Assembly: GCA_016185125.1 (NCBI GenBank) | Contig: JACPOC010000052.1 | Location: forward strand, 41,872 to 105,871 | DNA: 64,000 nt | Direction of reading: 5' to 3' | From: Bacteroidota bacterium | Lineage (GTDB): Bacteria; Bacteroidota; Bacteroidia; B-17B0; Aurantibacillaceae | In this document: in pieces, positions 38,360 through 46,885 of the stretch | Numbering within the stretch: the stretch's first letter is position 1 | Layout of the letters: each line of letters begins with the position of its first letter | Notes under the pieces: generated by a model | Databases searched by the model: none | The model's input: only the letters and a program-made list of their open reading frames with translations | What the model was told of the DNA's origin: nothing | Position numbers and translations under genes: made by a program

Positions 38360-38776
38360 ATGAAGTTAGCGATAATTAACGGCCCCAATTTAAACCTTTT
38401 AGGAAAGCGTGAAAAGGATATTTATGGAAGCATAAGTTTTGAAGACAATTTTAAAGAGCTCCAAAAAAAATTTCCAACAATTGAATTATCCTATTATCAA
38501 AGTAATGTTGAAGGAGAATTAGTTAATAAGCTTCATGAAATTGGTTTTACTTACGATGGCATTATTTTAAACGCCGGGGCTTACACGCACACCTCAATAG
38601 CTATAGCCGATGCAATTGCCGCAATTAAAACTTCTGTTATAGAAGTACACATTAGTAATATTTTTGCGCGGGAAGATTTTAGACATACTTCTTATTTAGG
38701 AGCTAAGTGTATGGGAAGCATTAGTGGTTTTGGTTTAAAGAGTTATGAGCTGGCAATAAAAGTTTTTAGTATTTAG
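38360..38776 (+). CDS. aroQ: 3-dehydroquinate dehydratase type II
   Basis: MKLAIINGPNLNLLGKREKDIYG...ILNAGAYTHTSIAIADAI...VEVHISNIFAREDFRHTSY. Confidence 0.96.
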   Translation: MKLAIINGPNLNLLGKREKDIYGSISFEDNFKELQKKFPTIELSYYQSNVEGELVNKLHEIGFTYDGIILNAGAYTHTSIAIADAIAAIKTSVIEVHISNIFAREDFRHTSYLGAKCMGSISGFGLKSYELAIKVFSI

Positions 38777-38832
38777 TGTTTAGTTTTGAGTGTTTAGTTT
38801 TTTAATATTAAAAACTTAAAACTGCTTAAAAA

Positions 38833-39456: not shown

Positions 39457-39551
39457 GCGCGAATTTATGAAGAAAACCGCTGATTAACCTACCCATAATT
39501 ACCTAAGGCTCTTTAAATATGAAGCAAAAAAATATATATTTTTAACAATTG

Positions 39552-39582
39552 TTTGTTTTTTAAAACAAATTTTTTATATTCG
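39552..39582 (+). promoter_or_regulatory. putative Bacteroidota promoter
   Basis: TTTG - 19 bp - TATATTCG, approximating TTTG/TAnnTTTG. Confidence 0.4.
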
Positions 39583-39586
39583 TTGT

Positions 39587-39673
39587 ATGATTATGCCAAT
39601 CTCTTTTATATCAATACATGCAAAAGCCCCTGCAACGCTTGCGGCTGTAGAGAGAGAGAGAGAGAGAGACTAA
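39587..39673 (+). CDS. 28-aa mini-ORF, possible leader peptide
   Basis: MIMPISFISIHAKAPATLAAVERERERD*; tail encoded by (AG)10; terminator follows 26 nt later. Confidence 0.4.
   Translation: MIMPISFISIHAKAPATLAAVERERERD
39649..39668. repeat. (AG)10 dinucleotide repeat
   Basis: Direct reading. Confidence 0.95.
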
Positions 39674-39699
39674 CAATACATTATTTAAATTATTATTTG

Positions 39700-39735
39700 C
39701 CCGTAACGTTATAAAAAGCGTGTACGGGTTTTTTT
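39700..39735 (+). terminator. terminator-like hairpin
   Basis: CCCGTA-ACG...CGT-g-TACGGG followed by T7. Confidence 0.7.
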
Positions 39736-39756
39736 ATGCTTTAAAATTAAAAACAT

Positions 39757-39977
39757 GTCGTTATGTTTTAAAAACAAGACGTTAATTATTGAAAACAAGA
39801 CGTTAATTATGGATGACAAGACCTTATGTTTTAAAAACAAGACGTTAAAATTGAAAACAAGAGCTTATGTTTTAGAAACAAGACGTTATGTTTTGAAAAC
39901 AAGACATTAAAATTGAAAACAAGAGCTTATGTTTTAAAAACAAGACGTTAATTATTGATGACAAGACGTTAAAAACT
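39757..39977 (+). repeat. tandem array A, ~11 units of 20-21 bp
   Basis: Units begin at 39757, 39778, 39799, 39820, 39841, 39861, 39882, 39903, 39923, 39944 and 39965; e.g. GACGTTAATTATTGAAAACAA / GAGCTTATGTTTTAAAAACAA / GACGTTAAAATTGAAAACAA. Confidence 0.95.
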
Positions 39978-40011
39978 AATCATTAAAAACTAAAATTAAA
40001 AACTAAAAGTT

Positions 40012-40416
40012 ATGGCCAGAAAAACAGTAAGAGTAAAAATACCCCGGGGCAATGCCGATGATATGATAGATTTAATAAAACATGTATTAAAGCATGATAA
40101 AGACCTTGGCAAAAACAGCCTGTTAGATAAGGTAGATGTAACCGCGCTTACCGCGTTGTTAAAAGCAGCAGAGCCCGAGCGCGAAAAAGCAAAAGAACTG
40201 GAAGCCGCCGCGCAGGGTTTTAACCAAAGTGCCAAAAACCATTTGGGCATAAACCGCGACCAAAGCATTAACACACCCAATACAGGCCTATACCACATAA
40301 CACAGGTGCGCGATACTTTGCTTAAAAAACTAAAAGGGGTTGAAGAAAAACTTGGCGAATACGGCTTTAACGTTGCCATTGGCAGTGCTAAAGGCCGGAG
40401 CAAAAAAACTAAATAA
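40012..40416 (+). CDS. uncharacterised small protein
   Basis: MARKTVRVKIPRGNADDMIDLIKHVLKHDKDLGKNSLLDKVDVTALTALLK...NHLGINRDQSINTPNTGLYHITQVRDTLLKKLKGVEEKLGEYGFNVAIGSAKGRSKKTK; preceded by tandem array A. Confidence 0.8.
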   Translation: MARKTVRVKIPRGNADDMIDLIKHVLKHDKDLGKNSLLDKVDVTALTALLKAAEPEREKAKELEAAAQGFNQSAKNHLGINRDQSINTPNTGLYHITQVRDTLLKKLKGVEEKLGEYGFNVAIGSAKGRSKKTK

Positions 40417-46241: not shown

Positions 46242-46586
46242 TTAATTAACAGTTGCCGCTTTAGGCCCCAAAATACTATCGTTTAGGCCGCTTACTATTA
46301 ATACCCTAAACCAATATGTAAGGCCGCTTTGCAAATTAGTTATAACCGCGCTATTGGTTATGCCGCGCGCGGCTTCTTTAAAAATGGGGGTTTCTCCATC
46401 ATGAAACTGCCATATATAAACCGACTTCATGCTCTTTTTACATTTTAATTCTACCACGCCCCTATCATCGGGCACTATTACTTCAAAATCAAATTGCGTG
46501 CGAACCGATCGTTTTCTTATCTCAAAAGTGCTTTTAGCAATAGTGTTTTCATCGCCTTGGGCTACTTTTTCAACATAATGCGCCAA
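46242..46586 (-). CDS. fibronectin type III-like small protein
   Basis: VYIWQFHDGETPIFKEAARGITNSAVITNLQSGLTYWFRVLIVSG; preceded by tandem array B. Confidence 0.65.
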   Translation of the reverse strand: MAHYVEKVAQGDENTIAKSTFEIRKRSVRTQFDFEVIVPDDRGVVELKCKKSMKSVYIWQFHDGETPIFKEAARGITNSAVITNLQSGLTYWFRVLIVSGLNDSILGPKAATVN

Positions 46587-46600
46587 TTCTATATTAATTT

Positions 46601-46885
46601 AGATTCTTCCGTCAAAATTTAGATTGTTCCGTCACGGTTTAGATTGTTCCGTCACGATTTAGATTGTTCCGTCACGATTTAGATTGTTCCGTCACGATTT
46701 AGATTGATCCGTCAAAATTTAGATTCTTCCGTCACGATTTAGATTGATCCGTCAAAATTTAGATTCTTCCGTCACGATTTAGATTGTTCCGTCACGATTT
46801 AGATTGTTCCGTCACGATTTAGATTCTTCCGTCACGATTTAGATTGTTCCGTCACGATTTAGATTGATCCGTCACGATTTAGATT
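46601..46885 (-). repeat. tandem array B, 14 exact 20-bp units plus 5 bp
   Basis: AGATTGTTCCGTCACGATTT and variants, in register from 46601 to 46880. Confidence 0.98.

Follow-up and report, generated by a model that had tools for sequence, protein, structure and literature searches.

Plasmid iterons are direct repeats of 17-22 bp located at replication origins, and they carry a conserved motif that is bound by the Rep initiator. In ParR/parC-type centromeres, tandem repeats are located beside a partition gene. The BrickBuilt minisatellite-MITE of Porphyromonas gingivalis is an intergenic element with 23-nt units that is present in many copies and sometimes flanked by a terminator; its copies share one unit sequence, a leader, a tail and terminal inverted repeats, with no protein gene (PMC4596501). 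In lake Planctomycetota, intergenic tandem repeats of variable copy number were reported as hotspots of structural variants (deletions) (PMC9426551). These two are the nearest published elements; no description of 21-bp arrays paired with small genes was found in open-access text, and one may exist outside it.

The array analyzed here (array A) was found in a stretch of 64,000 nucleotides from a Bacteroidota bacterium (hereinafter referred to as the window), 5' of a gene for a small protein (family 1), and comparable arrays were found beside genes of two further families (families 2 and 4). Like iterons, these arrays consist of direct repeats spaced by roughly two turns of the helix; they adjoin a gene and are presumably contacted from one side, but the loci are chromosomal and multi-copy, lack a conserved motif, and encode proteins that are not Rep-like. 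No Rep domain was detected by Pfam in the array-linked proteins; a search of 72,556 plasmids gave no match except one restricted to an FN3 domain, and the loci were located on chromosomal contigs. With ParR/parC the loci share a tandem array and a small-protein gene in cis, but the array may be on the 3' side, up to 14 loci are present per genome, and the protein folds differ. No filament-forming NTPase (ParM/TubZ/ParA) was detected by Pfam among the five ORFs neighboring array A, and the neighbors at other loci were only looked over. BrickBuilt is likewise an intergenic tandem array in Bacteroidota, whereas here each locus has its own unit sequence, the unit is 21 bp long, and the array comes with a gene. 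CRISPR arrays also adjoin protein genes, but the units here are arranged head to tail, with no spacers or repeat/spacer alternation. The lake Planctomycetota repeats are intergenic, originate from a phylum in which some family-2 loci were found and possibly belong to the same class, although the accessible part of the report gives neither a unit length nor a gene linkage (PMC9426551). A known defence gene was considered and rejected, as the array-linked proteins matched nothing in PADLOC-DB; mobility on plasmids or phages was also rejected, with FN3-domain matches only and no full-length match.

The features identified around array A were as follows (window coordinates).

39540 to 40252, forward strand: segment duplicated at contig C43 (locus L002), 92% identity
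39552 to 39582, forward strand: Bacteroidota-type promoter-like element (TTTG, 19 nt, TATATTCG), 5' of the hairpin and array A
39700 to 39736, forward strand: terminator-like hairpin (CCCGTAACG..CGTGTACGGG, then TTTTTTT), directly 5' of array A
39757 to 39976, forward strand: array A, nine full 20-21-bp units of the GACGTTATGTTTTAAAAACAA type and partial ones, with a 62-bp higher-order repeat
40012 to 40416, forward strand: family-1 ORF, 134 aa, basic (pI 9.8)

Tandem Repeats Finder (TRF) assigned 10.8 copies of period 21 to positions 39747-39974 (score 191), and a better fit was obtained with 3.7 copies of period 62 (score 293, 82% matches, 0% indels). When the array was cut between ACAA and G, the full units were 21, 21, 21, 20, 21, 21, 20, 21 and 21 bp in length, accompanied by partial units, and the 62-bp higher-order pattern corresponded to 21+20+21. 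The best self-match lag was 21, with a match of 0.71 over 126 bp, which is far above chance, as none of 60 dinucleotide shuffles exceeded 0.48. The last unit ended near 39976, leaving 35 nt to the ATG at 40012. The first-pass annotation, made from the letters of the DNA, had counted about 11 units, each 20-21 bp long, between 39757 and 39977, and had noted three interleaved sub-types in which units 4-5-6 resembled units 7-8-9, and an end about 35 nt before this ATG, and all three descriptions agreed with these results.

The hairpin 5' of array A (CCCGTA..TACGGG-T7) was identical in the duplicate copy at L002; its loop of 10 exceeds the limit of the terminator scan, and it was hence absent from the scan's listing. 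In L002, the promoter-like element is retained with the sequence TATTTTCG. An (AG)10.5 microsatellite (39649-39669), 6 bp shorter in the L002 copy, lies downstream of this element and ahead of the hairpin. Short AT-rich repeats (AGTTTTT; TTAAAAACTAAAA) were found at gene ends in the window (38761-38802 and 39969-40008), and a similar repeat was found at L072:8892-8970. An Rfam search of the window gave no match, i.e., no known RNA.

The family-1 ORF had no match in Pfam, NCBIfam, PHROG or PADLOC. Two more copies were identified in this genome, one of which (L002) was 94% identical to the family-1 ORF over 84 residues and then broken, and the other (L003) was 36% identical. A 20-21-bp array was located directly 5' of all three copies; the unit type at L002 was that of array A, and the L003 unit (ACTTATACAACTATGTTTAAT) was unrelated. 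The segment duplicated between the window locus (L001) and L002 contained the promoter-like element, the hairpin, the array and the first 80 codons, and the copy number and unit order of the array differed between the duplicates. As array and gene start are shared in one segment, the duplicated unit comprised both array and gene. Outside this genome, family 1 was found neither in 86 more genomes from the same taxonomic family nor in about 296 genomes of the phylum or the species-level genome collection.

A second array in the window (array B) was located beside a truncated gene of family 2.

46242 to 46593, reverse strand: C-terminal (FN3-like) part of a family-2 gene, which lacks the N-terminal ~82 codons and is broken directly at array B
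46597 to 46885, reverse strand: array B, 14.4 units of 20 bp, sense CGTGACGGAACAATCTAAAT

Arrays A and B are objects of one kind, array B being in decay. The first-pass annotation had treated the two as the same kind of thing, which holds because both adjoin members of array-linked gene families; the GACG/A-tract layout that it ascribed to both arrays was not recovered, the similarity of their consensus sequences being no greater than in shuffled controls (p=0.72 for sense and p=0.37 for antisense). Full-length family-2 paralogues were present at five other loci of this genome (L005, L006, L007, L008 and L022), all preceded by an array. The L005 protein was 88% identical to the fragment beside array B, and the L005 array (CATTTTTATATCCATTAAAG) was unrelated to array B. 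Family-2 proteins are ~200 aa in length, with a helical N-terminus and an FN3 domain; the AlphaFold model (mean pLDDT 93.6) likewise predicted a helical N-terminal domain followed by an FN3 domain. The model matched only FN3 in the PDB, and the match to known families in Pfam-type searches was fn3 at the C-terminus only. An alignment-based search of 392 other Bacteroidota genomes detected family 2 in 5 of them, and within the genus it was present in 9 of 40 genomes, this one counted. It was further detected in MAGs labelled Bacteroidetes, Ignavibacteria, Verrucomicrobia, Planctomycetes and Acidobacteria, with up to 14 matches per genome in some Verrucomicrobia.

Sampling of this genome for more arrays yielded family 4, a protein of 168 aa (MPYSNLSAAIS...) whose model was all helical (pLDDT 89.7) and had no match in the PDB. 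Of 198 Bacteroidota genomes, 16 contained it, as did 7 of the 14 genomes that bear family 2 and were reached through the loci, most of these from other phyla. The family-4 array is located 3' of the gene. At 10 of 17 loci, the stop codon was separated from the array by an intrinsic terminator; since the terminator precedes it, the array lies outside the mRNA of that gene. By charge, family 1 was strongly basic and family 4 was mostly acidic. Comparison of families 1, 2 and 4 by hhalign revealed no significant homology, families 2 and 4 giving a weak signal (P=0.013, probability 3%).

For the gene-array association, the best self-match lag between 12 and 45 was determined at each locus in 800 bp on each side, so that each gene was its own control; lags of 20-22 or 40-44 were scored as positive, which are 8 of the 34 lags and correspond to about 24% by chance. 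In family 2, the 5' side was positive at 49 of 53 loci in the first set and the 3' side at 11 of 51, and in an independent second set, chosen by protein alone from genomes of several phyla, the respective values were 31/34 and 5/34. Taken together, the 21-bp periodicity was found 5' of the gene at 80 of 87 family-2 loci and 3' of it at 16 of 85. Family 4 showed the opposite polarity, with all loci positive on the 3' side (20/20 in the first set and 12/12 in the second, 32/32 in both) compared with 5/20, 4/12 and 9/32 on the 5' side. All three family-1 loci were positive on the 5' side. The family-2 loci negative on the 5' side were L033 (a 16-bp lag from an 8-bp repeat, and a weak 21), L082 and L099 (short upstream sequence), L096 (a 62-bp period, outside the lag range), L305 (a 42-bp signal on the 3' side), L269 and L303; at L101, the lag was 21 but below significance. 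These results show an association of gene and array on a family-specific side, 5' in families 1 and 2 and 3' in family 4, in five phyla or more.

In the 101 arrays that gave a clear signal, the fundamental period was 21 in 89, 22 in 8 and 20 in 4, and fine-fitted periods were mostly 20.95-21.05 over several hundred bp despite 25-45% divergence between units. The unit sequences shared no common motif, as unit similarity between 51 arrays was equal to the reverse-strand control; for 86 arrays, similarity between different genomes was 0.276 in both sense and antisense and slightly higher for pairs from the same genome (0.314). GC content ranged from 20 to 63% and purine content averaged about 0.5. 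Thus, the arrays had a fixed two-turn period, no shared unit sequence and no strand bias. Three pairs of loci combined related flanks with unrelated arrays: L028/L031 (83% identity on the gene side), L037/L043 (88% identity 5' of the array) and L014/L032 (72% identity on both sides). These comparisons show that the array sequence was replaced between paralogues whose flanks are conserved. Dyad symmetry per unit showed a weak mean excess (z 0.7, n=86), with few single arrays significant, and self-complementarity showed a small excess that was equal on both strands; both were strong in a few loci (CCTTGCAAGG, TCCTATATAGGA, TTACAAGCTTGTAA). Relative to column-scrambled controls, the folding of arrays gave a mean z of -2.4 in sense and -2.5 in antisense. 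In families 1 and 2, the array was often located 100-500 bp before the ATG, and no consistent promoter position relative to the arrays was found. The first-pass annotation had claimed that spacing is conserved while sequence drifts, which applied well beyond array A, and the search for arrays near homologues that it proposed was positive, far beyond the scope that it had set.

Arrays were also surveyed in 864 kb of this genome, of which the window is a part. A period of 21 or 20 was shown by most non-coding arrays (arrays A and B of the window, the second array of L072, L073, L074, L077, L150, L152 and L165), the exceptions being L067 with 51 bp and another array of L072 with 14 bp. The arrays outside the known loci mostly had no family-1, -2 or -4 gene nearby; L074, L077, L152 and L165 lacked any family gene, and L074 and L077 were located at convergent gene ends. 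A 325-bp sequence comprising an array and a tail was present at two places in the genome (L150:4387-4700 and L152:9290-9610) with 88% identity. At L073/L189, the array preceded a single-copy core gene, the orthologues of which had no array in 19 relatives. The 115-aa ORF at L073 was accordingly rejected as another array-linked family, being a single-copy core gene with an array in this genome only. Non-coding 21-bp arrays were not detected in samples of 800 kb from four genomes of the same genus that lack family 2, of 396 kb from genomes that have it (gene loci excluded) or of 400 kb from G119, which is more distant.

The tail of ~220 bp in L150/L152 contained runs of C and a CACCTATATAGGTA palindrome, and one of the two copies had no family-4 gene. 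A large array at L165:1975-2871 showed a 210-bp (10 x 21) higher-order repeat in 4.3 copies and was located between a gene encoding an integral membrane protein and a gene encoding a large secreted protein.

The combination of conserved length and differing sequence points to a DNA element with a constraint on spacing, not on sequence. We tentatively suggest, at somewhat less than even confidence, that array A exemplifies a widespread chromosomal element in two parts, a small-protein gene and a helically phased DNA platform. The DNA part consists of about 10-30 direct repeats of 21 bp, i.e., two helical turns, in the intergenic space beside the gene. The array would act as double-stranded DNA, and action at the DNA level is favored by the location of family-4 arrays beyond a terminator, the purine content of about 0.5 and the equal self-complementarity of both strands. 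It may provide a platform of equivalent putative sites, one per two turns and all on the same side of the helix, on which the neighboring small protein, or a host protein partner, would assemble cooperatively; the weak average dyad excess per unit would suit dimeric sites. Homogenisation within the array, by slippage or unequal exchange, could let the unit sequence drift while the phase is kept, and such free drift would produce a private unit sequence at each locus. In its working, the element might be most analogous to an iteron or a centromere-like array. Since near-identical proteins were found beside unrelated arrays, sequence-specific recognition by that protein is unlikely. The strongly basic character of family 1 is in favor of the platform, whereas the family-2 and family-4 models, in which no known DNA-binding fold is predicted, the mostly acidic family 4, the lone arrays without a family gene and the modest dyad signal are against it. 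A broader and still more tentative proposal is that the arrays constitute a phylum-spanning class in which only the repeat length and the position beside a small-protein gene are preserved and sequences are private, possibly a bacterial analogue of satellite or centromere arrays that would be recognized by helical phase or local homogeneity rather than by sequence. Several hypothetical-protein families, two of them spread over several phyla, are tied here to a defined DNA feature, giving them a first functional handle, and the arrays represent a clean case of DNA spacing apparently selected without sequence.

The main reason for not holding the platform with higher confidence is that the lone arrays are the best argument for an amplification process. 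The arrays in general could be functionless by-products of sequence-agnostic amplification in two-turn steps at these loci or in these genomes, which we regard as rather unlikely. Such a process would be consistent with the lone 21-bp arrays at L074, L077 and L073/L189, the array duplicated without a gene (L150/L152), the unconstrained unit sequence and the frequent non-coding deletions at intergenic tandem repeats in lake Planctomycetota genomes (PMC9426551). It leaves unexplained why the side is fixed in each family across at least five phyla, and why lone 21-bp arrays are absent from the 800 kb of same-genus genomes without family 2 and the 400 kb of G119. A simple prediction, in which the phase is changed and the sequence kept, separates the functional platform from a mutational by-product.

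The remaining explanations are all less probable. An upstream regulatory array, in which helically phased activator sites would tune or phase-vary expression of the small gene through their copy number, is in line with the 5' position in families 1 and 2 at the distances from the ATG given above and with the different copy number and order in L001 and L002; this reading is improbable in view of the missing shared activator motif and consistent promoter position and, in the case of family 4 but not of families 1 and 2, the 3' location beyond a terminator. Transcription of the array into ~21-nt units that act as guides, protein-binding or structured repeats is about as improbable: the somewhat better folding than in column-scrambled arrays, together with the promoter-like element and hairpin 5' of array A, would fit an RNA, but there was neither strand bias nor strand-specific similarity, terminators part family-4 genes from their arrays, and nothing in the window matched Rfam. 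Intrinsic curvature by A-tracts in ~21-bp phase, as read from array A in the first-pass annotation, is very improbable; array A is A-rich with a repeat of two turns, and the mean AA/TT phasing of 32 arrays was slightly positive (z 0.56), but the phasing of array A itself did not exceed that of scrambled units (p=0.20), and many arrays were GC-rich (up to 63%) or unphased. Coding heptad repeats (7 codons = 21 bp) are the least credible reading and already largely refuted, because 20- and 22-bp units and the 62-bp (21+20+21) pattern disrupt the frame, about three quarters of arrays lack a frame that stays open for more than 90% of the array, and no start sites were present; some arrays were open in one frame, which is expected of units without a stop codon. 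The platform thus remains the reading that we tentatively prefer.

Further observations were made at family-2 loci. A family-2 gene fragment at L105/L021 (contig C32:30098) was nearly identical to the C-terminus of L006, indicating that pieces of family-2 genes are scattered in the genome. In an Ignavibacteria MAG, a region downstream of a family-2 gene (L032:3728-5138) contained tandem ~216-bp repeats encoding short peptides with an ...ILGG motif (IEELSTLEMDSILGG), which resemble double-glycine leader peptides.
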